From positions 1 to 37,328 of the forward strand of contig NZ_AULF01000035.1 of the NCBI RefSeq assembly GCF_000425145.1: a DNA stretch of 37,328 nucleotides, in the 5' to 3' direction. The number at the start of each line of letters is the position of its first letter. Position 1 is the stretch's first letter. The notes under the pieces were generated by a model. That model ran no database searches and was not told the origin of the DNA. It saw only the letters and a program-made list of their open reading frames with translations. The position numbers were made by a program, and so were the translations under genes. Shown here piece by piece: positions 17,027-36,870 of the stretch. The DNA is from Pedobacter glucosidilyticus DSM 23534. GTDB taxonomy: Bacteria; Bacteroidota; Bacteroidia; Sphingobacteriales; Sphingobacteriaceae.

Positions 17027-18751
17027 TTATTTACTCGCAATAGTTATAACATCGCTTTCTTTGTATCCATACCTTACAGCTTTTACTTCTATATCTTTTT
17101 TCATGGATTTAAAAGGCTTATTATACAGCTTCCAATATTTATCTCCATCGTATTTGTAGGCTATAGAAGCTCCTTCTGTTTTGCATTTTAAGTTAATGAA
17201 ACCATCTTTTTGCTCGTATTCTGGTAAAGATGTTAAGGGCTGCTTACCACCAGGCCACATTTTTTCGGCTTGTATAATTTCTGGAGTATCTAACCAATCT
17301 CCGTATTTCTTCTGCCAATTGTACAATGCTGTACGCATAGTGTCTAATACAGCTTGATATGCTGGTTGTAAGGCTAAGTTTTGAAGCTCAAATGGATCTT
17401 TTATCACATCATATAATTCTTCTACTGGCTTGGATGCTTCCATCCATGCAGACTGAACGCTATTAAGGCTTTTGCTATGGTATAAACTATCAATTCTTTT
17501 CATGATAGGGGCTTGATACATAAAATCTAAATACTGATTATAAGCGGTATCGGGCCAATAATTTTTAATGTATTTAAATTGTTTAGTTCTAACGGCTCTT
17601 TGTAAATCGTACTTAGCATCCATCCTATCTCTACCGGCAAAAATATAAGTTCGGGCTTGTGCTGATTTTTGTTTGCCCAAAAATGCTTGCCCTTGTATAT
17701 GATTAGGAATAGGTATATCAGCGATAGAAAGTACAGTTGGCGCTAGGTCCACAAAACTGACAAGTTCTTCATTTATACCGCTTAATTGACCTTTTATCTT
17801 GTTTTTCCACTTTTCTGGAGTATAAATAATTAAGGGTACATGTATTCCTCCATCATTCATCCATCTTTTACTTCTTGGTAAGCCGTCACCATTATCGCCC
17901 ATAAAAAATATGATGGTATTGTCTAGTAATCCATCGGCTTTAAGCCTATTGATTAATTTACCAATCTGAGTATCCATCCTATTTATATTGGTGAGGTGTC
18001 TGGCGTAATCTTGTCTTACAATTGTATCATCCGGATAGTAAGGAGGTAATTTAACTTTTGCCGGATTAATGATATACTTTTCTTCTAAAACGGGTCTTGA
18101 TTTTACATCTTCTTCCAAGCGCTTTAAATCAACATTAAATTCTTTAAAAAACCTAAGCTTGGTACTATCGGGCCAAGTATTGATTTCATGAGTAGTTTGG
18201 TAGGTAAAACATGAAAAAAAAGGCTGATTTTTATCTTCTCTATCCCACCAACCAGCTGTTAAAGTATGGCTATCCCAAACGGTAAAGGGGGTTCCAAACT
18301 GATAATCTGTTTTAAAGCTATTGGTGCAGAAATAATTATTTGCCCTAAGATACTCTGTAAATGCTTTTACATAAGCCGGAGGCACTGCATTGTAAAAAGG
18401 CACCCCTGCATAAGGTGTAAGGCTTTTGGCTTGCCTCATGTGTTGTGTGCCTATACTGGTACTGTACATACCGGTAACAATAGCTGCCCTACTAGGCGCA
18501 CAAACTCCGGAAACAGTAAAAGCATTTTGATATTGAACGCCATTTTTTGCTAACCAATCTATATTTGGGGTATGTACTACTTCCTCACCATAGCTCCCCA
18601 AATGGTTATTAATATCTTCCGCCATGATCCAAACGATATTAGGCTTTTCTTCTTGGGCGTAAGTACTAACTGGGGCTCCAAAACATAGCATGAAAGCCAT
18701 TAATTTACTTAGCTTTTTGGCTGGGGTATTTATAAATTTATTAAAAATCAT
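17027..18751 (-). CDS. secreted sulfatase, S1 family, with C-terminal beta-sandwich
   Basis: A 574-residue type I sulfatase that would remove sulfate esters (or N-sulfate) from a glycan in the periplasm. A signal peptide ends near YAQ32. AEDINNHLGSYG (Asp46) supplies metal ligands, the formylglycine site is CAPSR with Cys84, and GDNGD at 284-288 closes the metal site. The CAPSR context and overall pattern resemble the N-sulfoglucosamine sulfohydrolase-like subgroup, by memory only. Residues about 505-574 (GASIAYKYDGDKYWKLYNKPF...) look like a chitobiase C-terminal/FN3-associated domain. It is the last gene of the leftward operon, 8 bp after the glycosidase. A maturing enzyme must be encoded outside the window. 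Confidence 0.9.
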   Translation of the reverse strand: MIFNKFINTPAKKLSKLMAFMLCFGAPVSTYAQEEKPNIVWIMAEDINNHLGSYGEEVVHTPNIDWLAKNGVQYQNAFTVSGVCAPSRAAIVTGMYSTSIGTQHMRQAKSLTPYAGVPFYNAVPPAYVKAFTEYLRANNYFCTNSFKTDYQFGTPFTVWDSHTLTAGWWDREDKNQPFFSCFTYQTTHEINTWPDSTKLRFFKEFNVDLKRLEEDVKSRPVLEEKYIINPAKVKLPPYYPDDTIVRQDYARHLTNINRMDTQIGKLINRLKADGLLDNTIIFFMGDNGDGLPRSKRWMNDGGIHVPLIIYTPEKWKNKIKGQLSGINEELVSFVDLAPTVLSIADIPIPNHIQGQAFLGKQKSAQARTYIFAGRDRMDAKYDLQRAVRTKQFKYIKNYWPDTAYNQYLDFMYQAPIMKRIDSLYHSKSLNSVQSAWMEASKPVEELYDVIKDPFELQNLALQPAYQAVLDTMRTALYNWQKKYGDWLDTPEIIQAEKMWPGGKQPLTSLPEYEQKDGFINLKCKTEGASIAYKYDGDKYWKLYNKPFKSMKKDIEVKAVRYGYKESDVITIASK

Positions 18752-20271: not shown

Positions 20272-21645
20272 TTACTTTTTTGTGGGCATAGTTGCTTTCA
20301 CCTGAAAGCGCCATTGGTTTAAAAGATTTAACATTTTCTGAGTAATCTCAGGTTCTTGAGCTGAAATATCTTTGGTTTCGCTTTCGTCTGATTTTAAATT
20401 AAATAGTTGTACAGATGAGTCTTCTAAAGATTGAATAAGTTTAAAATCATTTAAACGTATGGCGGATGTAGGGCGCCCACCTTGATTACTAAAATGTGGG
20501 TAGTGAAAAAACTGAGGTTGAGAACGAATTAAATCTGGATTTTTGATGATATTGGCAAAACTTGTACCATCAACGGTAAAGGTTGGCTTAGCACTATTTG
20601 TCCAATCTAATAAGGTTGGTAAATAATCAATAGTGCTTACAAGGGTATTACTCACACATCCTTTTTTTTGTGATGGATGATAAATTAACAAAGGAATTCT
20701 TATTCCGCCTTCATAAAGTGTACCTTTTCCATTTCTTAAAGGTGCTGAAGTGGTTGGTTTCAAATCTCCAGCCTCATCTGTAACAACACCCCCATTATCT
20801 GAAAGAAAGATAACGATGGTGTTTTTAAGCAACCCTTTTTGCTTTAACTTGCTCCATACTAAACCTATATTTTGGTCTAATTCTTCTACCATAGCAGCAT
20901 ATAACGGATTAATATCTTTACCATAAGGGTTGTATTTCTTTTGATATTTATTTTTTAAATGCTCTTGTGGCTGTAATGGTAAATGAGGATTGTAATGTGT
21001 AAGCATAAGAAAGAAAGGACTTTTACCAACAGTATCTAAATAAGATATGGCATCTTTGGTAATCATTTGTGTTATTTGAGGAAGCCTGTAACGGTTTCCA
21101 GTGCTATCTACACCTTTTATCCAAACATAAGAGTCGTTTTCAGGGATTAGACCGTAATCATAATGGGCTACCTTATCAAAACCATTTTTTCCTGGATAAC
21201 TTAGTGTAGGATGTGTATTTTCTCCTAAATGCCATTTTCCTATTAGTGCAGTTTGATAGCCTTCTTTTTTGAGATATTCTGGTAATGTTTGCACTTCATA
21301 GGGTAAATAATTGATGTAATGTGCAGGCATAACAGGTGAACTGTCATCTGTCTTTTTTCCATCAATAAAATTAGTTAAACCTAATCTTGCAGGATATTGG
21401 CCTGTTAAAATACTGGATCTTGTTGGAGAGCAAACTGGAGCAGCCGAGTAGGCATTTTTAAAAAGGATAGATTTTGAGGCTATATGATTGATATGGGGTG
21501 TTTCTATAAATTTATTTCCATAACATCCTAAATCATTCCTGCCTAAATCATCGGCTATAATTAAAACAATATTGGGTTTTGTTTGCGAGAAGGCTATTTG
21601 CGCAGAAACTGTAAGTATTAACAAAGATGTTTTTAAAACTTTCAT
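20272..21645 (-). CDS. secreted sulfatase, S1 family (arylsulfatase-like)
   Basis: A 457-residue sulfatase from the ATG at 21645; an in-frame start 14 codons earlier would put extra residues before the signal peptide MKVLKTSLLILTVSAQIAFS, so it is not preferred. Asp32/Asp33 (ADDLG) bind metal, the formylglycine motif is CSPTR with Cys72, GKWHLG (Lys137, His139) and SDNGG (Asp283, Asn284) complete the active site. All catalytic elements of a working type I sulfatase are present. It differs markedly from the second sulfatase in the operon, so two different sulfate positions are probably attacked. It lies 51 bp after the ADP-ribosylglycohydrolase-fold gene. Confidence 0.92.
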   Translation of the reverse strand: MKVLKTSLLILTVSAQIAFSQTKPNIVLIIADDLGRNDLGCYGNKFIETPHINHIASKSILFKNAYSAAPVCSPTRSSILTGQYPARLGLTNFIDGKKTDDSSPVMPAHYINYLPYEVQTLPEYLKKEGYQTALIGKWHLGENTHPTLSYPGKNGFDKVAHYDYGLIPENDSYVWIKGVDSTGNRYRLPQITQMITKDAISYLDTVGKSPFFLMLTHYNPHLPLQPQEHLKNKYQKKYNPYGKDINPLYAAMVEELDQNIGLVWSKLKQKGLLKNTIVIFLSDNGGVVTDEAGDLKPTTSAPLRNGKGTLYEGGIRIPLLIYHPSQKKGCVSNTLVSTIDYLPTLLDWTNSAKPTFTVDGTSFANIIKNPDLIRSQPQFFHYPHFSNQGGRPTSAIRLNDFKLIQSLEDSSVQLFNLKSDESETKDISAQEPEITQKMLNLLNQWRFQVKATMPTKK

Positions 21646-21696
21646 TTCTTTTTGTTTTATATAGAGATGAAGTATGTTCGCCTTCATCTCTCCTTA

Positions 21697-23598
21697 TTAA
21701 TAGTTTAAAAATGGTACAATGGTACTCCACTGACTTTGATGATGGTGTTCTCCTTTGAAATCTTTTAGCCCGAATTCTATTCTGGTTTCATCTGTTAAAG
21801 TATCTAACCTTATACAAATCTCATTTTCGCCCTCATTAAATTCTTGTAAAAAAACATGTGCAGCAGGCCAACATCTTTTAATTTCTAAGCTTTTATAAAC
21901 CTCTTTTCCGTTAACAAATACAGTTAAATAACTAGTGCAGCCCATGCAAACCCAAAGTTTTATTGCAGAAGAGAATGTTAGATTACTATATAAAAACAAG
22001 GTTTTTTCTCCTTTTCCATAAAAGAATTTATCTACCGGAATATTGAAAGAACTGGCATGTATAGTATCTATATGGAATGGCTGAGCTGCTCGATCAGCAA
22101 GTAGTTCTTTAATGGTATTAACCTTAATAAAATCCTTTTGGATATTAACTTGATCATGGTTCATGTAAATGGTTGATGGCATACTGCTCATACCATGTTC
22201 GGGATAAGTCTCATCACACGGAATAAGTTTTTTATCATCCTCAATAAAGGGCCCTAAAAGAGCCCAAGAACCATAGTAAGGCATATTAACAGCTATTTCA
22301 TGCAACTGCACATCGTCTTGCGCAATCAACAACTGATAACGAAAAGCATTTTTATAGGATGTTGGAGTTGGTAAATTGACTTCAAAATCGATGATAAAAT
22401 CATCCGAATCTATTTTTAATTTATCGATTTTATTGATGAGTTTGTCCTGATCATCTTTAAGTGAAAAAGAAAGCTTCGAAGAGTTTTGTTTATCAGTAAA
22501 ATAAATTCTGATGATTTGATGAGGCACAAAACAACTATCATCCCATAAAGGAAACTCTACTTTAACTTGATAAGGCGGATGAGGAATATTTAAGACGGCA
22601 TGGTTATCTGATATAGCATCATGATCAAAATACTGGCAAAATTTCATTCCCTCTTTACAGGTTGCTGCTGTTAGCTCAAATATGGTTGCGGGCTTATAAA
22701 TGTCTATAATAGCTTCGCTAATCAAGATTTCTTCGCCTACACGCTCTTTCCATAGGGTTGGAATGTTCTCATATCCTTTAATTATACCAATTAAAGCACC
22801 TGCTGTGGCCACTATACAATCGCTATCATGCCCCATGTGTAGTGCTTGTGCAATACAATTAAAATCAGTGTTAGATGTTGCCAGGGTAAGTATGGTAAAA
22901 GCGATGTTCATTGGGGCCGATGTAAAATCAGCGTCACCATAGAAACTTTTAATCTTATACATTACTTTTTCTGCATCATGCTGGCCGCACCAATCCAAAA
23001 CTTTAATAACCAACGCATACATAGAACCATCTTTGGGTATGTATCCTAAAGCTTTTCTTAATACCTGCAAGATATCGGTCTCAAAAAATGCAATGGAAGC
23101 ACAAACAGAAAAATATTGTTCTGCTTCTACACTAAAACCGCTATGATCTAAACTACCATCTAAACCAGCATAATAAGCTGCTTTTTCTGGCATGCCAGGG
23201 CACAGCATTCCCCACAACTCGCTTCTTATAGGGCAGCCCATACTGCTTTTCCAATAATAATTATTCAATCGGCCACTTTCTGGAGGTATAATACCGATAT
23301 TTAAATTTCTAGTTGCAATACCGTATTCATTCCAAGGGAAGCCAACAAAATTTTTCCAGTGCTGTGCAAAATCTTTTTCATTGATATGAACAGATTTTTT
23401 CATCACCATATCCAGCCACAATACTTGGAGATCCAAATCATCATTAGCAAAATTAGTTTCAAATAATTTATCGCTAATTTCAATAGCATTAAAGTGTTTA
23501 AACCCTTCTATTGGAGCTCCCAGAATTCCTCCGGCACATTTACCAACCCAGCCACCTAATACTTTATCGTAATACTTATCGTATGTTAATTGTGTCAT
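21697..23598 (-). CDS. ADP-ribosylglycohydrolase-fold protein with C-terminal beta-sandwich domain
   Basis: A 633-residue protein with no signal peptide, so probably cytoplasmic. Residues 12-32 (KVLGGWVGKCAGGILGAPIEG) are the family start; ANDDLDLQVLW (Asp53, Asp54, Asp56) and GHDSDCIVATAGALIG (Asp258, Asp260) match the two acidic clusters that bind the metal pair in ADP-ribosylglycohydrolases. The usual DTD is DSD here. From about 350 a second part begins, all-beta, with YGSWALLGPF and VFVNGKEVYKSL, like the jelly-roll modules of glycosidases. The family cleaves N- or O-glycosidic bonds at ribose; the substrate here is unknown. It is 8 bp after the 63-residue membrane protein and is clearly part of the same operon as the permease. 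Confidence 0.85.
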   Translation of the reverse strand: MTQLTYDKYYDKVLGGWVGKCAGGILGAPIEGFKHFNAIEISDKLFETNFANDDLDLQVLWLDMVMKKSVHINEKDFAQHWKNFVGFPWNEYGIATRNLNIGIIPPESGRLNNYYWKSSMGCPIRSELWGMLCPGMPEKAAYYAGLDGSLDHSGFSVEAEQYFSVCASIAFFETDILQVLRKALGYIPKDGSMYALVIKVLDWCGQHDAEKVMYKIKSFYGDADFTSAPMNIAFTILTLATSNTDFNCIAQALHMGHDSDCIVATAGALIGIIKGYENIPTLWKERVGEEILISEAIIDIYKPATIFELTAATCKEGMKFCQYFDHDAISDNHAVLNIPHPPYQVKVEFPLWDDSCFVPHQIIRIYFTDKQNSSKLSFSLKDDQDKLINKIDKLKIDSDDFIIDFEVNLPTPTSYKNAFRYQLLIAQDDVQLHEIAVNMPYYGSWALLGPFIEDDKKLIPCDETYPEHGMSSMPSTIYMNHDQVNIQKDFIKVNTIKELLADRAAQPFHIDTIHASSFNIPVDKFFYGKGEKTLFLYSNLTFSSAIKLWVCMGCTSYLTVFVNGKEVYKSLEIKRCWPAAHVFLQEFNEGENEICIRLDTLTDETRIEFGLKDFKGEHHHQSQWSTIVPFLNY

Positions 23599-23606
23599 TT
23601 TATTTA

Positions 23607-23798
23607 TTATATCTTATCTTTTTTTGTCACCCAAAATGGTGCACTTAAAAACCACATAAAAGCGCCTATAATCATAAAAATTTCATATTGCTTAAAAGTT
23701 ATAAGACCATGAAATGATAAAAAAGCTGGTACTGCCGTAAATAATAACCCCAAATAGGATAGCGTTTTTAATATGATTTTTATCGGGTAATTTGCCAT
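23607..23798 (-). CDS. small membrane protein, 63 residues
   Basis: A short protein with two hydrophobic segments (about residues 8-28 and 38-56), starting MANYPIKIILKTLSYLGLLF and ending FWVTKKDKI. It fits exactly between the permease (10 bp away) and the ADP-ribosylglycohydrolase-fold gene (8 bp away), which argues for a real gene. No family is recognised. It may be an accessory subunit of the permease or simply an unrelated small membrane protein; the tight spacing is the only evidence for a link. Confidence 0.7.
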   Translation of the reverse strand: MANYPIKIILKTLSYLGLLFTAVPAFLSFHGLITFKQYEIFMIIGAFMWFLSAPFWVTKKDKI

Positions 23799-23808
23799 CT
23801 TGTAATGT

Positions 23809-25230
23809 TTATAATGAATCTTTGATGATGTTTTTTGGCTGTTTCATTTGTCTTAACTTGCATAAAAACAAGTAAACTATGGCTGCAATAAACCAACCCG
23901 GTATAGCCATAAAAAAGAAAAAATCTAGCTCTAGCCCTAAATAAATAAGGTAGCAAAGCGTTACCGAAATTATCCATGTAGCTGCAACGGCCCAGTTCAT
24001 TTTCCCGTTTCTGTGATGAGAATAATCTGTCTCGAGATTAAGTTTTTTAAATACATAAACCTCCAGAACCACAATAGCCCCAACGGGTGCAGCAATTAAG
24101 GCAAACCATGCTAATAAATTATCTAGTTTGGAAACAATACCAGGGAATGAAGCCATTAAAGCAGCTGCTACGCCCAACCAAGCTGTTATTTTCCATCTTT
24201 TTGTTGATGGAAAAATACCTTGTATAGCTAAACCAGCCCGATACAAAGTTGGATTGGCGGTTGTCCAGCCCGCAATAACTACACATATAATTCCGGCTAT
24301 ACCAGCTCCTATACCTGCTACCTGACCCGGAGTAGGGTCTGAAATACCTGCTTGTAATGCTGCTGCGCAAAGTATCCCCGAAGCTATCCACGCCATAAAA
24401 TGCCCTATAAACATCCCTCCAAAAGAGGCAATACCATAGTACGATTTCTTAGCATATCTATATATAAAAGTATCTGCTAAACCAATGTGCATAGCAGTAT
24501 TGCAAAGCCATGCAAAAAACATGATATGCCAAAAATTATATTTTGACATGCCTTCTACCGGTGTACCTGTCCAAATGGTGGTATTAGCTACGGTCCAGAA
24601 ATCACTAAAAGAATGAACACCCAATTGAGGTAAGGTAGCAATGCCCGAAGCTAAGAAAACCCAGGGCATCCATGGGGTGCTGATGGTTGCAAATTTTGAA
24701 ACCAAATCAATCCCTTGAATAGCTATTACGGTTATAAGCGCTACCAAAACAGTTACCAATACAACCCAGGTAATACCACTTGGCAGCATTTGAGAGAAAC
24801 TTGGTGTTTCTAAACCCAAGACCAATGAAATTGCACCGGCAGAAACAACAGCCATAAAAGCTGCAAAAACACATGCTTGTATACCTGATATTCCGTTAAA
24901 AATAGAAACTAACTTATATCCACTTATTCTTTCTAATTGATAAAAAAGCGTTAAACGCGTTTTCACGGCAAGAGGTGCACAAATTAATGTCCAACTTAAT
25001 GTGGCCAATATATTTCCTACCAAAAGACCTAATATAACATCTGAAGCTGTTGCGCCATGTAAAACAAATAATGGCCCAATAACAAATTCTGTCCCTGCAA
25101 TGTGCTCGCTGGCTACCAGAGCTAAAAAATCTTTAAATCCTTTAACTTTAGATGCAGGTACAGGTTCTCTTTCATAATCATTAATTGCATCTAACTGATC
25201 ACTTATAGATGTCGCAGTATTATCAGACAT
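23809..25230 (-). CDS. NCS1-type nucleobase/nucleoside permease (CodB-like)
   Basis: A 473-residue inner membrane carrier with about 12 hydrophobic helices. The N-terminal DYEREPVPASKVKGFKDF and the helix-1 pattern SEHIAGTEFVIGPLFVLHGA are typical of the NCS1 (purine-cytosine permease) family, which imports nucleobases, hydantoins, thiamine precursors or nucleoside-like compounds with H+ or Na+. The exact ligand cannot be read. The gene follows a strong hairpin after susD and precedes the small membrane protein and the ADP-ribosylglycohydrolase-fold gene. An NCS1 carrier in a sulfatase-bearing SusCD locus is unusual, as such loci normally use sugar symporters. Confidence 0.8.
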   Translation of the reverse strand: MSDNTATSISDQLDAINDYEREPVPASKVKGFKDFLALVASEHIAGTEFVIGPLFVLHGATASDVILGLLVGNILATLSWTLICAPLAVKTRLTLFYQLERISGYKLVSIFNGISGIQACVFAAFMAVVSAGAISLVLGLETPSFSQMLPSGITWVVLVTVLVALITVIAIQGIDLVSKFATISTPWMPWVFLASGIATLPQLGVHSFSDFWTVANTTIWTGTPVEGMSKYNFWHIMFFAWLCNTAMHIGLADTFIYRYAKKSYYGIASFGGMFIGHFMAWIASGILCAAALQAGISDPTPGQVAGIGAGIAGIICVVIAGWTTANPTLYRAGLAIQGIFPSTKRWKITAWLGVAAALMASFPGIVSKLDNLLAWFALIAAPVGAIVVLEVYVFKKLNLETDYSHHRNGKMNWAVAATWIISVTLCYLIYLGLELDFFFFMAIPGWFIAAIVYLFLCKLRQMKQPKNIIKDSL

Positions 25231-25312: not shown

Positions 25313-26992
25313 TTAATTTGGATTTTGAGCTTCCAAACCTACTTGAAAGTTTAATGTTAAATCGTCAACATGAAACTTCAGCAATGTTCTGTTAGAATTC
25401 CACTCAAAAGTTGATGTTCCTCTAGTTAATGGTGCAACTTGTGAAGCAGGATAAATGGCTCCGTTAGCTGCATTATAAGCGGACATACGTTTCCAGCTCC
25501 AGAAATCAAAACCTTCAAAAAGTAATTCTCTTTGTCTTTCTCTAACAATTTCTGCGATCAAGCCAGCTTGAGTACCACCAATTGCTGGGTCTAACAAAGT
25601 ACGGTTAACATAGCCTGTAATAGCTCTTCTTCTTATAAGATTATAATCATCTAAGGCTAAAGCAGTGTTTCCTTGTACAGCGTTAATTTCAGCTCTGGTT
25701 ATCACCAATTCTGCTGCTCTTATTAATGGGAAAGTTTGCATTCCTATTAGAGTAGCTTGCGTTTGAAAACCCCATTTTTGTGTTAAACGTTGGTTTCCTA
25801 TTGCTCCCGCAAAAGCATTATTGAATGTTAACTGCGTAAATCTCCTATCGTTAACTACATCATCAAAAAGAGGACTTGTGGTAACCGCAGTATTTGAAGG
25901 AGGGTTAGGTGTTGGTCTGTTTAAAAACCATCTAGCTGCCCCTCTACTTTGAGGGTTTCCTCCTGACTCATTAGTAATGTTAATAGAAGCATTGGTATAA
26001 CCTGCGGTAGCGGTAGTGCTATTTACCAAACGTAAAATTTCTTCTGAATTAGCAGGCGGAGCTGTAAAGCCTGTACTATTAAATGGTAAAGTTATATCAT
26101 TTTGTAAGCTATATACCCTATTACCCGTTTCTGGCGTTCCGGTAATGGTACCTGGTGTATTGCCAATAACTTTATCAATAGTTTCTTTAGCTAATTGATA
26201 GCTTGCTGGAGTTGCTTGTTGGAAATACACCCTAGCTAACACCGCTAAAGCAGCTGCTTTATTAGCTCTAAACCTATATGCAGGAAAAGCCCCGTGAATG
26301 TTTGCATCATAAGCCACAGGCAATAAAGCCGCTGCTTGTTGCAAATCACTTATAATTTGGTCATAAGTTTCTTGTATAGTTGCTCTTTTAACTCCAGCAG
26401 AACCATCAATAGAAGGTTCTAAAGGTAACAAGATACCGCCACCAGACGTATTGGTATTATGACCATATTGGTGAGCCCAAAATCTAGCTGCATAAAAGAA
26501 ACATAAACCTCTTATAAAATAAGCTTCACCCATTAACCTATCCTTTTGTCTACTAAATTCAGAATCGGCAGGTGGTGTATTATTAATATAAAATAAGGTA
26601 CTATTAGCACTAGCAATAGGTACGTATAAGTTTCTTGATAATCTTGCCAAAAAAACATTATCTGGCTGCATAGAGAAATTATACATCAAATTGGTAGCCG
26701 CATTTGCACCACTTTGAGGTGAAGGAAACACAGTTCTTGTTGCACCCATAGCTTCTGCATAAAGCGCCATATCAAAAACCGATGAAGAGTTTACCGTTGG
26801 CGGACCTTGTGCAATAAGCCTTCCATAACCGCTGTTAATTATTCCGTCTAGATTTGCTGTACTTTGGTTTACCACACCACTAGATAATTCATCATTTGGA
26901 GGTAAATCAAACTTTTTACAGGCGTCAAATACAAAGCAGGTTAAGACCAAAACTAGGTACTTGGTGTATTTATGTTCAAATAATCGTTTCAT
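25313..26992 (-). CDS. SusD/RagB family glycan-binding lipoprotein
   Basis: A 559-residue outer membrane lipoprotein that forms a lid on its SusC partner and binds the incoming glycan. Signal sequence with lipobox FDAC (Cys25). The helical SusD body contains RLMGEAYFIRGLCFFYAARFW (the usual TPR-like helix), a typical SusD-like segment IQETYDQIISDLQQAAALLP, and the C-terminal EIVRERQRELLFEGFDFWSWKR. Length is normal for the family. It follows susC by 18 bp and is followed by a terminator-like hairpin. Confidence 0.95.
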   Translation of the reverse strand: MKRLFEHKYTKYLVLVLTCFVFDACKKFDLPPNDELSSGVVNQSTANLDGIINSGYGRLIAQGPPTVNSSSVFDMALYAEAMGATRTVFPSPQSGANAATNLMYNFSMQPDNVFLARLSRNLYVPIASANSTLFYINNTPPADSEFSRQKDRLMGEAYFIRGLCFFYAARFWAHQYGHNTNTSGGGILLPLEPSIDGSAGVKRATIQETYDQIISDLQQAAALLPVAYDANIHGAFPAYRFRANKAAALAVLARVYFQQATPASYQLAKETIDKVIGNTPGTITGTPETGNRVYSLQNDITLPFNSTGFTAPPANSEEILRLVNSTTATAGYTNASINITNESGGNPQSRGAARWFLNRPTPNPPSNTAVTTSPLFDDVVNDRRFTQLTFNNAFAGAIGNQRLTQKWGFQTQATLIGMQTFPLIRAAELVITRAEINAVQGNTALALDDYNLIRRRAITGYVNRTLLDPAIGGTQAGLIAEIVRERQRELLFEGFDFWSWKRMSAYNAANGAIYPASQVAPLTRGTSTFEWNSNRTLLKFHVDDLTLNFQVGLEAQNPN

Positions 26993-30595: not shown

Positions 30596-31693
30596 CTAAT
30601 TGAGTTGAGATTTTTGAAACTGGCGTGGGGTAAAACCAGTAAATTTTTTGAAGTTGGTATAAAAAACCGATTCTGAATTGTATCCACTTTCTAAAGCAAT
30701 GGTATACATTTTATCATTCATGGTTTTAGGATTTAGCAATAACTTTTTTGCCTCTTCAATTCTTTTATAGTTGATAAACTCATTAAATGTTTGGCCCAAA
30801 TGTTCGTTTAAAAATATAGATAAAATATAAGGTTGTACATTTAATGCTTTAGCTAAGCCTTTCTCATTTAAATCCCATTGCTTGTAAATTTTATCAATAT
30901 CAATGGCTTTATTTAAATTGCTTTTATAAAGTAATATTTCCTCCTCGCTAAGTTTTAGTTTATTCTTCTTTGAGATGGTAATATTAAACAACTCAATTTT
31001 ATCCATCTGTAAAAGCTGAGGTTCTTTTAGGGCATATATACCTGCTAATAAAAGTATAATACTATCTGTAATTACCAATACCATTTCTAGTATGGGGTTA
31101 AGTTGCGTTCTAAAGGAAGGTAAAAATTGGTTCTTAATTAGGATAAAGTACGCTGTTATCATTTTTAAGAAAAATATGATAAACAGGAGTTTCAACCAAT
31201 CAACCACCTCTTTCTTATTAAATTCTTTTAACTGATATGCCTTTACCTTTCTAATATATAATATAGCATATACTGTATATGAAATAACAACAGCTAATAA
31301 AACAATATCATGATATGCTGTACCTATATAAAGGTTATAAGAAAAGGGTAACCATTTAAAAATTAAAAAATAAGAAGTAAAAAGTATAACTAAAATAGTA
31401 GGTAAGAAATACAACCACAAATGTTTAGGATAACGCCTGTTTAAAATAAGCAGCATATAGATATATACAATAGGCCCTAAACTTATGTCTATATAGTCAG
31501 ATAGAAATACAAACTCTGGATGGGTATCTAGAAAATCTGCAAAGCGCAATAAATACTGATTACCTATATAAACAGATGTTAGCACATAAAATAAGGAGAG
31601 AAAAAAATTGGCTCTTGTGAATTTCATGATTAAAATAGAAACCCCAAAAAACAATCCTTGAAAACATGCCCAAATGTATAGTGCTGATAACAT
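30596..31693 (-). CDS. 7-TM AraC family transcriptional regulator
   Basis: A 365-residue protein with about seven hydrophobic helices in residues 1-235 (starting LSALYIWACFQGLFFGVSILIM) and an AraC/XylS DNA-binding domain in about 265-362, with two helix-turn-helix units: LAKALNVQPYILSIFLNEHLG and YTIALESGYNSESVFYTNFKKFTG, ending FTPRQFQKSQ. A membrane sensor fused directly to a DNA-binding domain suggests it detects a ligand at the inner membrane and controls the flanking genes. It lies between the leftward susC arm and the rightward esterase arm, so it is the likely regulator of one or both. It has no receiver or kinase domain. Confidence 0.88.
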   Translation of the reverse strand: MLSALYIWACFQGLFFGVSILIMKFTRANFFLSLFYVLTSVYIGNQYLLRFADFLDTHPEFVFLSDYIDISLGPIVYIYMLLILNRRYPKHLWLYFLPTILVILFTSYFLIFKWLPFSYNLYIGTAYHDIVLLAVVISYTVYAILYIRKVKAYQLKEFNKKEVVDWLKLLFIIFFLKMITAYFILIKNQFLPSFRTQLNPILEMVLVITDSIILLLAGIYALKEPQLLQMDKIELFNITISKKNKLKLSEEEILLYKSNLNKAIDIDKIYKQWDLNEKGLAKALNVQPYILSIFLNEHLGQTFNEFINYKRIEEAKKLLLNPKTMNDKMYTIALESGYNSESVFYTNFKKFTGFTPRQFQKSQLN

Positions 31694-31783: not shown

Positions 31784-32977
<1,194 letters not shown>

Positions 32978-32980
32978 TAC

Positions 32981-35191
32981 ATGAAAAAGTTCATCATCTT
33001 AAGCACATCTATTTTAATATTTTTAAGTTATACAGGCTTTTCTCAAGACTTAAGCAAATTTGTAAATCCGTTTATAGGAACATCTAATGCCGGAAATACA
33101 CATCCAGGAGCAGTACTTCCGTGGGGTACAGCATCAGTGGTTCCGCACAATACTTATAAAGGCCCTACACCCTACATACATGGCGAAAAATATTTACTAG
33201 GCTTTGGTAATTTACAACTATCTGGTGTTGGGTGCCCAGAAACTGGCAGTATTTTATTAAGACCTACTCACGGAGATCTTTTTACTGATGTAGAAAAAGG
33301 AAAATCAACCTATATTCATGAGCAAGCAACACCGGGTTACTATAGTACTTTTTTAGAAACTCATCATATCTTAGCTCAAATGACTGCCACACAAAGAAGT
33401 GGCAGATCAAAATATACCTACCCTAAAGGAAAGAATCATCTAATTATTGATTTAGGAACCACACAAAGCCATATTAAAGGTGGTTTAGTAGAAATAATCT
33501 CCGATAATGAAATAAGAGGCTATAAAAATGAAGGTAATTTTTGCGATTCTAGATTATCAAGGAAAACATTCTTTTACATTAAAATCATTGGTCCTGCATC
33601 GAAAACCGGATTGTTTAATGGTACCCAACTTATAACAGATAAAACTATATCTGGAGAGAAAGTTGGTGCTTATTTAAGTTATAACTTTGCTAAAGAAACC
33701 AGTATAGAGGTTTTGGTAGGCATATCTTTCGTAAGTATAGAAAATGCTAAACAAAACTTAGAGGCTGAACAGCCCAAGGATAAATCTTTTAAAGAAATTA
33801 AAAACTTAGCCAGAAAAGCCTGGAATACAGAGCTTAGTAAGGTAAAAGTTAAAGATGATGCTGACACCAATAAAACTAAATTCTATACGGCTTTATATCA
33901 TACTCTTATCCACCCAATGGTTTATAATGATGTTAATCATGATTATTTAACCATGCAAACTGAAGATCAAAAAGAAAGATTTGTTAAAAAAACAGATTAT
34001 ACAAGATATTCGGTTTTTTCTTTATGGGATACTTATAGAACTGTTCATCCATTATTTACATTACTTTACCCTAAACAGCAAAGAGACATGACCCAAAGTA
34101 TGATAGACATGTATAAAGAAGGGAAATGGCTACCCAAATGGGAATTATTTGGACAAGAAAGTTGGGTAATGGTTGGAGACCCTGCTAGTATCGTCATTGC
34201 TGACACCTATTTGAAGGGAATTAAAGATATCGACATTAAATCAGCCTATGAGGGGATGTTAAAAAGTGGTTCTTATTTAAAATCTCAAAACTATCTAAGA
34301 CCAGGCTTAAAAGAATATCTAAAATATGGCTATATCCCTATTGATAAAAGAGGTGGAGCCGATAGTACCCTTTTTTCTTTCAACAATGGTTATGTATGGG
34401 GACCAGTATCAACCTCACAAGAATATTATCTATCTGATTTTAATATTTCAAGAATAGCTAAAGCATTGGGCTTTAAAGATGATGAAAAAACCTACCTAGA
34501 AAGAAGTAATAATTTCACCACCTTATTTGATGATGGCTTAAAATTTTTCAGACCTAAAAACAGTAATGGTACTTGGTTAACTCCTTTTAATCCCTTAGAT
34601 AGAACTTTTGACATAAGATGGGAAAAAAGCGGTGGACATGGCTATGTAGAAGGTACCGCATGGATTTACAGATTTTTTGTGCCGCATAACCCTCAAAAGC
34701 TGATTGCTTTGTTTGGTGGCAATAAACCTTTTAAGGATAGTTTGGATTTACTTTTCTCAAAAAAATATTTTGATATTACCAATGAGCCTGATATTAGCTA
34801 TCCATACTTGTATAATTATATTGAAGGAGAAGAAAACAATACCTCTACAACTGTTCATCACATCATAGATCATTCTTACTCTACTAAACCAGGAGGCATC
34901 CCTGGTAATGATGATGCTGGAACGCTATCGGGATGGTTAGTTTTTGCAATGTCTGGCATTTATCCTGATTGCCCCGGGATTCCAGTTTATCAGATTAGTG
35001 TTCCAAAATTTAAAAAAGTGATATTAAACCTCTCTCAAGATTATTGGAGTTCTGATAAATTAACTATTCAAAAAATTGGTGAAGGTATAAAGATTAAAGA
35101 AATATGGCTTGATGGTAAAAAATTAACTTCTTTTTCTGTTAAACATGAAGATCTTGTTAAGGCTAAAAAGTTAACTATTAAAACCTTTTAA
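32981..35191 (+). CDS. GH92 family alpha-mannosidase
   Basis: A 736-residue secreted enzyme (signal peptide to about residue 22). The GH92 landmarks appear in order: FVNPFIGTSNAGNTHPGAVLPWG, then TRYSVFSLWDTYRTVHPLFTLL, the acid GYVEGTAWIYRFFVPHNP (Glu557) and the base region GIPGNDDAGTLSGW (Asp644/Asp645). The family uses Ca2+ and inverting hydrolysis to release mannose from alpha-1,2/1,3/1,4/1,6 linkages. All key residues look intact and the length is normal. It follows the esterase by 3 bp and precedes an FHS-type symporter. Confidence 0.94.
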   Translation: MKKFIILSTSILIFLSYTGFSQDLSKFVNPFIGTSNAGNTHPGAVLPWGTASVVPHNTYKGPTPYIHGEKYLLGFGNLQLSGVGCPETGSILLRPTHGDLFTDVEKGKSTYIHEQATPGYYSTFLETHHILAQMTATQRSGRSKYTYPKGKNHLIIDLGTTQSHIKGGLVEIISDNEIRGYKNEGNFCDSRLSRKTFFYIKIIGPASKTGLFNGTQLITDKTISGEKVGAYLSYNFAKETSIEVLVGISFVSIENAKQNLEAEQPKDKSFKEIKNLARKAWNTELSKVKVKDDADTNKTKFYTALYHTLIHPMVYNDVNHDYLTMQTEDQKERFVKKTDYTRYSVFSLWDTYRTVHPLFTLLYPKQQRDMTQSMIDMYKEGKWLPKWELFGQESWVMVGDPASIVIADTYLKGIKDIDIKSAYEGMLKSGSYLKSQNYLRPGLKEYLKYGYIPIDKRGGADSTLFSFNNGYVWGPVSTSQEYYLSDFNISRIAKALGFKDDEKTYLERSNNFTTLFDDGLKFFRPKNSNGTWLTPFNPLDRTFDIRWEKSGGHGYVEGTAWIYRFFVPHNPQKLIALFGGNKPFKDSLDLLFSKKYFDITNEPDISYPYLYNYIEGEENNTSTTVHHIIDHSYSTKPGGIPGNDDAGTLSGWLVFAMSGIYPDCPGIPVYQISVPKFKKVILNLSQDYWSSDKLTIQKIGEGIKIKEIWLDGKKLTSFSVKHEDLVKAKKLTIKTF

Positions 35192-35213
35192 ATTTTTTAT
35201 CACTTTTTCCATT

Positions 35214-35245
35214 TTTATCAGTGATATTTGATTATCACTGATAAA
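35214..35245 (+). terminator. palindromic hairpin between the GH92 and symporter genes
   Basis: TTTATCAGTGATA (35214-35226) and its exact complement (35233-35245) form a 13-bp stem with a TTTGAT loop, then TTTCTTATTTC. It is 22 bp after the GH92 stop and 17 bp before the symporter ATG. The weak T run suggests partial termination; a regulatory palindrome is the alternative. Confidence 0.65.
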
Positions 35246-35262
35246 TTTCTTATTTCTTGAAT

Positions 35263-36870
35263 ATGACATCACCAACATCAAAAAGTTATACATCCGCACT
35301 GTACACTTTAGTAACCGTTTTCTTTTTCTGGGGCTTTGTAGCGGCCTCTAACGGTATTTTTATCCCGTTTTGTAAAACGCATTTTAACCTCACCCAGTTT
35401 GAGTCTCAATTGATAGATTTTACTTTTTACGGAGGTTATTTCATAGGCTCTTTAATTTTATACTTTGCCTCACAAATTACTAAAGTAGATATCTTAAATA
35501 AGATGGGCTTTAAGAATGGCATTATCGTAGGTTTGGTGATTTCTGCATTGGGAGCCCTTATGATGGTACCTTCGGTTAATGTAGGCTCCTTCGGATTGAT
35601 CCTAACCGCTTTTTTTGTTATCGCGATAGGCTTTTCCTTACAACAAACAGCCGCCAATCCTTTTGCTGTTGCTTTAGGCACACCAGAAACTGGTGCTGAT
35701 AGGTTAAATCTTGCCGGTGGTGTAAACAATTTTGGTTCTTTATTAGGCCCCATTATCGTAAGTATTATCTTATTTGGTACAGCCGCAGGTGCCGAGCCTA
35801 AAGCCGTAGAAATTACTTCTATCAATATGCTTTATTACATCCTAGCTAGTTTGTTTATTGGGGTAGCCATTTTCTTTGCTATATCTAAATTACCAAAAGT
35901 AACTAGCGATGAACATATAGAAGCCAGTAAAAAAACGAATGGTCCTTTACTTATTATGTTGGTCGCATTTTTATTGATTTTAGCTGCCGATCCTCTAGCA
36001 AGTATGACAGGTATATCTGCAGCTATTTATGTTTATGCCTCTTTACTTATTGTAGTATTAACCTTATTCTTATCAAGCACAGCAGCAAGTAAAAAGCCCG
36101 AAGGCTGGGGCGCAATGAAATATCCTCAATTAATTTTAGGGATGCTAGCCATCTTTACCTATGTAGGGGTAGAGGTAAGTATACAAAGTAATTTTGGAGC
36201 ATTGTTAAATACGCCAGCATTTGGTTCTTATCCAGAGGCAGAAATAGCACCTTTTATCTCCTTATACTGGGGAAGCTTAATGATTGGCCGTTGGACAGGT
36301 GCTATATCGGCTTTTAACCTGAGCAAATCGGTTAAAAATATTTTAACTATAGTAGTTCCCTTTATTGCCTTCGCGGTGATATTAGGTTTTAACCATATTA
36401 GCGGTACTGATATTGGTAATTTATATATCTATGCCATTTGTATTGTGGTATTGATAGCGGGCTTCTTTTACAGTCAGGAAAAACCAGCAAAAACTTTGGC
36501 TACATTTTCTGTATTAGGTGTTGTAGCTATGTTAATTGGCTTATTAACCACAGGTCAAACAGCAACTTATGCTTTCATCAGCGGAGGTTTATGTTGCTCT
36601 ATCATGTGGCCATGTATTTTCTCATTATCCATCACGGGTTTAGGGAAATATACCAGTCAAGGTTCATCTTTTTTAATCATGATGATATTGGGAGGGGCCA
36701 TTATCCCACCGGTACAAGGCATTTTTGCCGATAACAGCGGTATCCATTTATCTTACATCATCCCGGTAATTTGCTTTGCTTACTTATTGTTTTTTGCATG
36801 GAAAGTAAGTAAGGAGCTACAAAAACAAGGCTTTGATGTCAATAAAATTGAAACAGAAGGTGGGCATTAA
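35263..36870 (+). CDS. sugar:H+ symporter, FHS/FucP family (MFS)
   Basis: A 535-residue inner membrane carrier with about 12-14 hydrophobic segments. The start is placed at the ATG at 35263; an in-frame TTG two codons earlier is less likely. Family marks are [35 protein letters not shown] and [34 protein letters not shown], the FucP/GluP signature, and the late [15 protein letters not shown]. This family imports fucose, glucose, galactose or mannose with protons. Next to a GH92 mannosidase, mannose import is the natural inference. It is about 50 residues longer than several FucP members. Confidence 0.88.

Follow-up and report, generated by a model that had tools for sequence, protein, structure and literature searches.

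Known importers of L-rhamnose include RhaT, a member of the drug/metabolite transporter (DMT) superfamily, and carriers of the ATP-binding cassette (ABC) and major facilitator superfamily (MFS) types (PMC3870299). The NCS1 fold belongs to another superfamily and has been described for a carrier of cytosine and one of hydantoin (PMC9379551). Here we describe a locus in a stretch of 37,328 nt of Pedobacter glucosidilyticus DSM 23534 (contig NZ_AULF01000035.1; this whole stretch is called the window), in which adjacent genes encode an NCS1-fold permease, a small membrane protein and an ADP-ribosylglycohydrolase-type hydrolase. Several described systems resemble the locus in part. In Escherichia coli, yegTUV places a carrier beside a PF03747 protein; the window has another type of carrier, and no kinase was found there. 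The ribose scavenging (rus) loci of Bacteroides reportedly contain a nucleoside hydrolase, a ribokinase and a PF03747-type gene. The window likewise combines a SusC/SusD pair (SusCD) with a PF03747 gene, but it differs from the rus loci in its permease, its sulfatases and its cytoplasmic PF03747 protein, and neither a PfkB kinase nor a nucleoside hydrolase was found among the 20 window proteins scanned. The three genes are the following:

21697-23598, minus strand: ADP-ribosylglycohydrolase-type open reading frame (ORF) of 633 amino acids (aa), PF03747
23607-23798, minus strand: two-helix membrane protein of 63 aa, the companion of the permease, an ORF whose homologues adjoin permease genes or lie one gene away
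23809-25230, minus strand: NCS1-fold permease of 473 aa, from a Pfam-less family associated with L-rhamnose catabolism (structure model and gene context of the family)

These leftward ORFs, separated by 8 bp (hydrolase/companion) and 10 bp (companion/permease), agree with a first-pass annotation of the sequence, which had proposed that the carrier imports a nucleoside-like compound. Our results suggest a different cargo. The family of the permease can be assigned with good support as a two-component importer of the rhamnose type, and we lean towards a locus that harvests a sulfated rhamnose-containing glycan, pairing this two-component NCS1-fold importer with a cytoplasmic hydrolase that acts on the imported product.

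The rhamnose linkage was established for the permease family; for the window permease itself it is indirect, with the rha operon of the genome on another contig. Surveys of the permease, of RhaI-type isomerase genes and of a 502-aa window protein discussed below were based on 296 genomes of the phylum, including that of the window, which we took to be the same draw in each case. The permease was found in 29 of these genomes, i.e., in 28 of 295 without the window's own, and 29 places were compared. A RhaI-type gene was present in 26 of the 28 other permease genomes versus 22 of the 267 remaining genomes (Fisher p 6.7e-22, with the genomes treated as independent, which they are not), and it lay at most 10 kb from the permease in 21 of the 26 genomes having both. 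The two permease genomes without RhaI hold only the relative of 37% identity that stands beside a polyol-type dehydrogenase. Among the 29 permease stretches fetched, 21 contained a RhaI-type gene, one that reaches a contig end contained the aldolase-dehydrogenase without RhaI (L093), three contained a mannitol/arabinitol-type dehydrogenase (L111-L113) and one GH78 alone (L099); none of these four genes was found in L086, L095 and L107. GH78-type genes were detected by tblastn in eight of the 29 stretches, four of them also named by Pfam. In L086, the permease and companion genes adjoin one for a distant GH92 (25%) and are remote from the RhaI-type gene of a genome that also has RhaT; this is possibly a second recruitment of the permease out of a rhamnose operon.

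Where genomes have the rhamnose pathway, the permease family takes the place of RhaT. Neither the window permease nor the members of its family matched the RhaT family PF06379. RhaT itself was sought in the 49 RhaI genomes with a search that recovered it in the controls E. coli and Bacteroides ihuae. In the 48 of these left when the window's genome is set aside, RhaT alone was found in 20, the permease alone in 24, both in two (G457, and G473 with a weaker RhaT) and neither in two, a near-exclusion with p 3.3e-9 under the same treatment of genomes. Among the open-access papers listed for rhamnose together with ADP-ribosylglycohydrolase, nucleoside transporter/ulvan or nucleobase cation symporter, none was evidently a report of this permease.

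Plasmid-borne relatives point in the same direction. The permease matched 10 plasmid records, one from Persicobacter and nine gammaproteobacterial, of which six were examined. It adjoins rhaI on Catenovulum and Pseudoalteromonas plasmids; on pAlt76 of Alteromonas sp. 76-1 the two are about 12 kb apart within a single run of sugar genes. pAlt76 is a published ulvan plasmid, and strain 76-1 grows on ulvan (PMC6431674). All three permeases are labelled 'nucleoside transporter' although rhaI and a rhamnulose-phosphate aldolase gene are in the same cluster, and such labels on rhamnose-linked relatives show how a nucleoside guess arises. The pAlt76 permease, 38% identical to that of the window and with the companion apparently fused to it, has a sulfatase gene as its neighbour and belongs to a run of genes that includes rhamnulose-phosphate aldolase and rhaI, and a relative of the window's second sulfatase stands beside an alpha-L-rhamnosidase. 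The window differs from pAlt76 in having SusCD, GH92 and the hydrolase, and in that no GH78 was found among the window proteins scanned. On one further plasmid the permease is near a GH78-like gene, and on two (L181, L183) its neighbours are a gene of the mannitol dehydrogenase family and one for a carbohydrate kinase. A branch of 570-aa permeases accompanies mannitol-type dehydrogenases in these two plasmid loci, with the kinase, and in L111-L113; its members are probable polyol carriers.

By sequence, the permease falls outside described families. The window protein had no Pfam or NCBIfam match at E 0.01, and a PDB profile search with the family gave no sequence match. At E up to 1, the 28 members of the permease alignment gave no match to PF02133 or to any other Pfam family of transporters, although HMMER filters drop most matches this weak; four unrelated families matched one member each, at E 0.025 or worse. 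In contrast, an AlphaFold2 model built from 28 rows (pLDDT, the predicted local distance difference test, 86.6) had CodB as its top fold match in the PDB (7qoa, E about 1e-10, TM-score 0.67-0.69 by query and 0.78-0.80 by target), with Mhp1 (4d1a/2jln, TM-score 0.71/0.73) next among the leading matches; identity in the structural alignments to CodB and Mhp1 was 14-18%. The CodB profile match was moderate (probability 62% local, 93% forced global) and pairs the permease stretch AGWTTANPTLYRAG with the stretch NIWTTNDNALYASG of transmembrane helix 8 (TM8) of CodB. The permease TM8 stretch WTT..(A/N).LY is aligned there to the sodium-site threonines: T323 and T324, aligned to CodB T278/T279, and the TM8 tyrosine were present in all 34 permease rows. 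In CodB the aligned TM8 threonines hold sodium, and TM3 supplies Gln105 and Trp108 to the binding site (PMC9379551); the alignment of permease TM3 and TM6 to CodB, whose nucleobase-binding side chains are Gln105, Trp108 and Phe204, is of low confidence. The permease appears to share the LeuT-type fold and the TM8 sodium-site threonines with CodB and Mhp1, and its family differs from them by the lack of PF02133, by its rhamnose or polyol gene context and by its two-helix companion. The name 'NCS1' given by the first-pass annotation is valid for the modelled fold of the permease but not for a Pfam family.

The companion is confined to permease genomes. Its homologues are 56-65 aa long, with two helices and the consensus GLxLTxVPxFLVF...LWFxTAPFWM, and in 20 of the 29 places the companion gene adjoins the permease gene or lies one gene further, between aldolase and RhaI. 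A search with a 22-row profile found it in 22 of the 29 permease genomes, the window's included, and in none of the 22 RhaI genomes without permease. In a draw of 238 genomes, all 18 companion carriers were permease carriers; with at most 27 candidates scored per genome, negatives in this draw are softer than those of the former search, where every candidate was scored. The companion is missing from seven permease genomes (G363, G400, G415, G453, G473 and two polyol-type ones) and is therefore restricted to the permease without being universal with it. In five 570-aa permeases the C-terminus is extended by about 100 residues that show the two-helix arrangement of the companion. Comparison of companion and extension with hhalign gave a score of 22.45 over 54 columns, at a probability of only 12%, while 41 control windows (15 from the permease and 26 from five other neighbour clusters, not all of them established as membrane proteins) scored at most 15.4. 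The score being above all controls, we read the extension as a companion that is apparently fused in these relatives. These data suggest that the companion is a dedicated partner of the permease, with which it would pair physically. We know of no small dedicated subunit on record in the NCS1 branch. SGLT2-MAP17, in the wider LeuT fold, is a precedent: like the window pair it combines a LeuT-fold sugar carrier with a small membrane protein, MAP17 being likened here by type only, and SGLT2-MAP17, identified by entry title among the fold matches, matched the permease far more weakly than CodB did.

The surroundings of the three genes, which enter the following comparisons, are:

17027-18751, minus strand: second sulfatase, PF00884
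18760-20268, minus strand: 502-aa protein with a signal peptide recognised by eye and, from its motifs alone, a probable glycosidase of clan GH-A type
20272-21687, minus strand: sulfatase, 9 bp after the hydrolase gene, PF00884
25260-25301, minus strand: terminator-like hairpin of 18 pairs and a T run between susD and the permease gene, its stem kept in two other Pedobacter records (L002, L003)
25313-26992, minus strand: SusD-like lipoprotein, PF14322 and PF07980
27011-30277, minus strand: SusC-like TonB-dependent receptor, TIGR04056 at E 3.2e-230
30596-31693, minus strand: AraC-type regulator (Pfam/NCBIfam scan), with a 34% homologue in the Persicobacter hydrolase locus
32981-35191, plus strand: GH92 glycosidase, with a 48% identical homologue in the Persicobacter rhamnose operon

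Both Persicobacter loci are carried by pPP1 of Persicobacter psychrovividus, which holds the best plasmid matches of the window permease, the GH92 glycosidase and the second sulfatase (top of 10, 73 and 298 records, respectively). In the rhamnose operon (L174), genes for GH92 (48%), a RhaI-type isomerase, a RhaK-type kinase, a class II aldolase, the permease (57%) and the companion (37%) stand in a row; the RhaI-type and RhaK-type proteins are 60% and 39% identical to those of the window genome, and a sulfatase (47% to the window's second) lies beside the operon on the opposite strand. Four of the 298 records with relatives of the second sulfatase were examined besides Persicobacter: the relative stands beside a GH78/alpha-L-rhamnosidase gene in Halocatena and Alteromonas but not in Mesobacillus, and the Burkholderia record is unannotated. 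Outside the genus, a full-length relative of the 633-aa hydrolase was found only in the second pPP1 locus (L173), with 60% identity over 317 residues of the catalytic part and 35% over 217 of the C-terminal part. Its gene is divergent from the AraC regulator homologue (34%), beyond which lies a permease gene (51%); on its other side are SusCD, a nucleoside-hydrolase-family (PF01156) gene and DUF4380. The permeases of the window, L173 and L174 form one clade (100/99). The recurrence of carrier and hydrolase in one Persicobacter cluster, with the regulator gene between them, bears out the earlier view that the two belong together.

The ADP-ribosylglycohydrolase fold had also been named correctly: the hydrolase matched PF03747 at E 5.3e-28 (98.9 bits against a gathering score of 26.2). 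It is far below the NCBIfam equivalog cut-offs of DraG and Tri1 (22.7 bits versus 490 and 15.5 versus 337). E31, D53, D54, D258 and D260, which we take from DraG and ARH3 to be metal ligands, are invariant in 51 aligned rows, drawn from a homologue cluster of 65 by leaving out members below 400 aa and five long ones; in some of the short paralogues, motif residues are altered (L124). For the N-terminal domain the model is good, with fold matches to MJ1187, ARH3 and DraG. Over most of 342-533 and 601-633 the pLDDT is under 50 (whole mean 63), and the C-terminal region had no Pfam match above chance; in this poorly modelled, beta-rich region, weak CBM35/PA14-like fold matches (E 0.01-0.1) give only a hint of sugar-binding modules.

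Homologues listed from other genomes are 23-31% identical over the catalytic part and occupy different surroundings. A simple hydropathy score found a hydrophobic N-terminus in 44 of the 51 long homologues (44 of the 48 from other genomes); three Pedobacter hydrolases and four others fell below the threshold, and the Persicobacter hydrolase lacks such an N-terminus as well. Within five genes of the homologue, in 46 loci of other genomes whose neighbour families were named through one representative each, we found PfkB-type genes in 17 (15 of them with a DMT permease), SusC or SusD in 16, a PF01156-type gene in five and an NCS1-fold permease in none. The cytoplasmic subfamily was found only in the window's genus and in Persicobacter, each time clustered with a permease of the same clade. 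There seem to be two branches of the hydrolase, one mostly exported, in ribose/nucleoside-like and other sugar loci, and one cytoplasmic with a rhamnose-type carrier. The expectation that hydrolase homologues adjoin the permease was borne out by the single full-length plasmid homologue and by none of the 46 other loci. As a general rule that hydrolase homologues travel with the permease it was rejected (0/46 of these loci and 0/29 phylum permease stretches). The proposal that the substrate is imported intact and cleaved in the cytoplasm is partly favoured by hydrolase sequences of the type without a hydrophobic N-terminus.

Among the distant loci, the 15 that combine PfkB, DMT permease and PF03747 genes (eight also with SusC/D; e.g., L122, L139, L144, L146, L149, L153, L154, L157) are rus-like loci in other genera. 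Three others (L124, L141, L142) contain runs of four PF03747-type paralogues near genes that by eye resemble those for parts of ABC sugar importers (solute-binding cluster 49).

For the window, we envisage the following pathway. SusCD would bring oligosaccharides through the outer membrane, and the sulfatases and the 502-aa enzyme would trim them in the periplasm. The permease, probably sodium-coupled, and its two-helix companion would take L-rhamnose, or a small product that contains it, through the inner membrane. In the cytoplasm, the hydrolase would then cleave the imported product at the anomeric carbon, releasing rhamnose into the RhaI, kinase and aldolase pathway encoded elsewhere in the genome. 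The data show the genes, their folds and layout, the link of the permease family with rhamnose genes, its near-exclusion with RhaT, the confinement of the companion to permease genomes and a rhamnose-type operon in this genome. From these we infer the cargo of the window permease, the periplasmic steps, sodium coupling, the physical association between carrier and companion and, most of all, what the hydrolase acts on.

A number of observations weigh against this pathway. The genome has RhaT, aldolase-dehydrogenase, RhaI-type and RhaK-type genes in one run on another contig, and with RhaT already in this operon the window permease is not needed for free rhamnose. RhaT and permease are split partly along families: RhaT only in f1, f2, f3, f9 and f10, permease only in f8, f14, f24, f26, f30, f38, f40 and f42, both kinds in f4 and f5, and neither in f15 and f32, so the p-values overstate the number of independent events. 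RhaI-type matches are below the NCBIfam equivalog cut-off in 48 of 49 genomes; the isomerase scores 503 bits versus 647 and the kinase 55 versus 528, while the aldolase-dehydrogenase is well above its cut-off. The naming of the rhamnose pathway leans on this last enzyme and on RefSeq labels (plasmid-borne rhaI). No GH78 was found among the 20 window proteins scanned, and GH92 is a family of alpha-mannosidases. No ADP-ribosylglycohydrolase homologue was found in the 29 phylum permease stretches. In L173, where the hydrolase-linked permease is near a nucleoside-hydrolase-family gene, the companion was not found (chance-level match only), and window and L173 permeases were flagged as long branches in the tree that includes both, so that joins may be false. 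Finally, at 39 of 147 conserved columns the window permease differs from the rhamnose-linked consensus, among others by Y111F, N115S and F119A in TM3, and the L173 permease has G, I and S at W322, N326 and T328; the TM3 and other departures imply that the cargo of the window permease may have changed.

Some of these substitutions coincide with the hydrolase. Among 34 rows, F111 and A119 occur only in the window permease (Y and F in the rest), and at position 115 the window permease has S and that of L173 has I, against N in all 32 others, so that this residue is changed only in the two hydrolase-linked carriers. The TM3 substitutions are common to the two other Pedobacter records. A larger cargo would be accommodated by smaller side chains in TM3, in keeping with a cytoplasmic hydrolase that acts once the cargo has been imported; the sequences of two lineages give no more than a hint of this. 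Divergence alone proves little, since L174 itself departs at 31 of the 147 columns (window 39, L173 47). We tentatively extend the proposal to a family that serves as a RhaT stand-in across Bacteroidota and marine gammaproteobacteria and that, in the window, may have been retuned through TM3 for a larger rhamnose-bearing glycoside, split by the hydrolase.

Alternatively, the permease could import free L-rhamnose alongside RhaT, with a hydrolase unrelated to this cargo that, for example, reverses ADP-ribosylation of a protein or small molecule. The rhamnose evidence for the permease family suits this explanation, as do PDB fold matches that include hydrolases of ADP-ribosylated proteins. We nonetheless regard it as rather unlikely. 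The hydrolase gene is tied to the carrier by its 8-bp spacing (counted through the companion) and by its recurrence with a same-clade permease in Persicobacter, its C-terminal region weakly resembles sugar-binding modules, and N115 is changed only in carriers linked to it.

A shift of the permease to some other cargo, i.e., a different deoxysugar, a methylated or uronic sugar or a polyol, would account for the three TM3 substitutions common to the Pedobacter records and for the long branch of the window permease (0.89). It also fits a genome that retains its own RhaT and the relatives linked to polyol dehydrogenases (L111-L113, L181, L183). However, the window permease keeps W322, N326 and T328 as in all 23 rhamnose-linked rows, whereas the polyol-linked rows L111-L113 have I326 and N328. 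The window also has permease, companion, GH92 and sulfatase in common with the Persicobacter rhamnose operon and its flank. We consider such a shift improbable.

The import of a nucleoside-like N-glycoside from a sulfated glycoconjugate, cleaved in the cytoplasm by the ADP-ribosylglycohydrolase-fold enzyme, is suggested by the NCS1 fold, the PF03747 domain, the PF01156 gene of the Persicobacter hydrolase locus and the distant hydrolase loci with PfkB and DMT permease (15/46) or PF01156-type genes (5/46), but it is very unlikely given a permease family tied to rhamnose genes, the lack of PfkB and nucleoside hydrolase among the window proteins scanned and the absence of the permease from all 46 distant loci. 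In a rhamnose-permease stretch, moreover, a nucleoside-hydrolase-type gene (L093, 5365-6420) directly follows a GH78-type gene (cluster membership), so PF01156-type genes alone do not mean nucleosides; this family may serve sugars other than nucleosides. With relatives of the permease in L-rhamnose operons, on an ulvan plasmid or beside mannitol-type dehydrogenases, and present where RhaT is missing, we rejected a nucleobase or nucleoside cargo as first choice and return to the rhamnose-containing glycan.

The neighbouring genes make up a polysaccharide utilisation locus, with a SusC/SusD pair, degradative enzymes and a regulator. The placement of the three genes between susCD and two sulfatases plus a glycosidase, as given by the first-pass annotation, holds for susCD and the sulfatases; the glycosidase is a reading of motifs with no Pfam match behind it. 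The 502-aa protein had no Pfam or NCBIfam match at E 0.01 (the best Pfam match, E 0.095, is at chance level) and no convincing match in a PDB search. It is rare, with a relative in one of the 295 other phylum genomes and one match on a Rhodococcus plasmid at 24%. Its motifs GNEL and ATEFN, read by eye, presumably correspond to those of retaining clan GH-A glycosidases. No ulvan lyase was found among the window proteins scanned; the coverage of such lyases by Pfam is unverified, and the search did not extend to the remainder of the genome.

Downstream of the hairpin, six genes form a block (permease, companion, hydrolase, sulfatase, 502-aa protein, sulfatase). The hairpin lies between susD and the permease gene, so that the block from the permease onward need not share the expression level of susCD; the hairpin may be the point at which expression changes from susCD to the enzyme genes. 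The same gene order is found in the two other Pedobacter records, from P. puniceum and from a P. glucosidilyticus metagenome-assembled genome (MAG), whose hydrolases are 98% and 94% identical to that of the window, and in both the hairpin stem is conserved with an altered loop. In the MAG (L003, 11912-13326) the first sulfatase gene is one base shorter and its ORF ends at 457 aa, by assembly error or frameshift. Divergent from the block, an esterase, the GH92 glycosidase and an MFS gene occupy 31820-36870. The best NCBIfam match of the esterase is a feruloyl-esterase fusion, below cut-off, and relatives of the MFS gene are found near PF03747 genes in L144 and L166.

If the permease family carries rhamnose, it would represent a further solution beside RhaT, the ABC and the MFS importers and would supply the missing uptake route to 24 of the 26 genomes in our draw that have a RhaI-type gene but no RhaT. 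The label 'nucleoside transporter' on ulvan-type plasmids would be corrected, and a small dedicated subunit would be added to the NCS1 branch. Should the hydrolase prove to be a glycosidase, many of the PF03747 genes found in sugar loci would become testable, and this use of the ADP-ribosylglycohydrolase fold in glycan catabolism would found a new glycoside hydrolase family.

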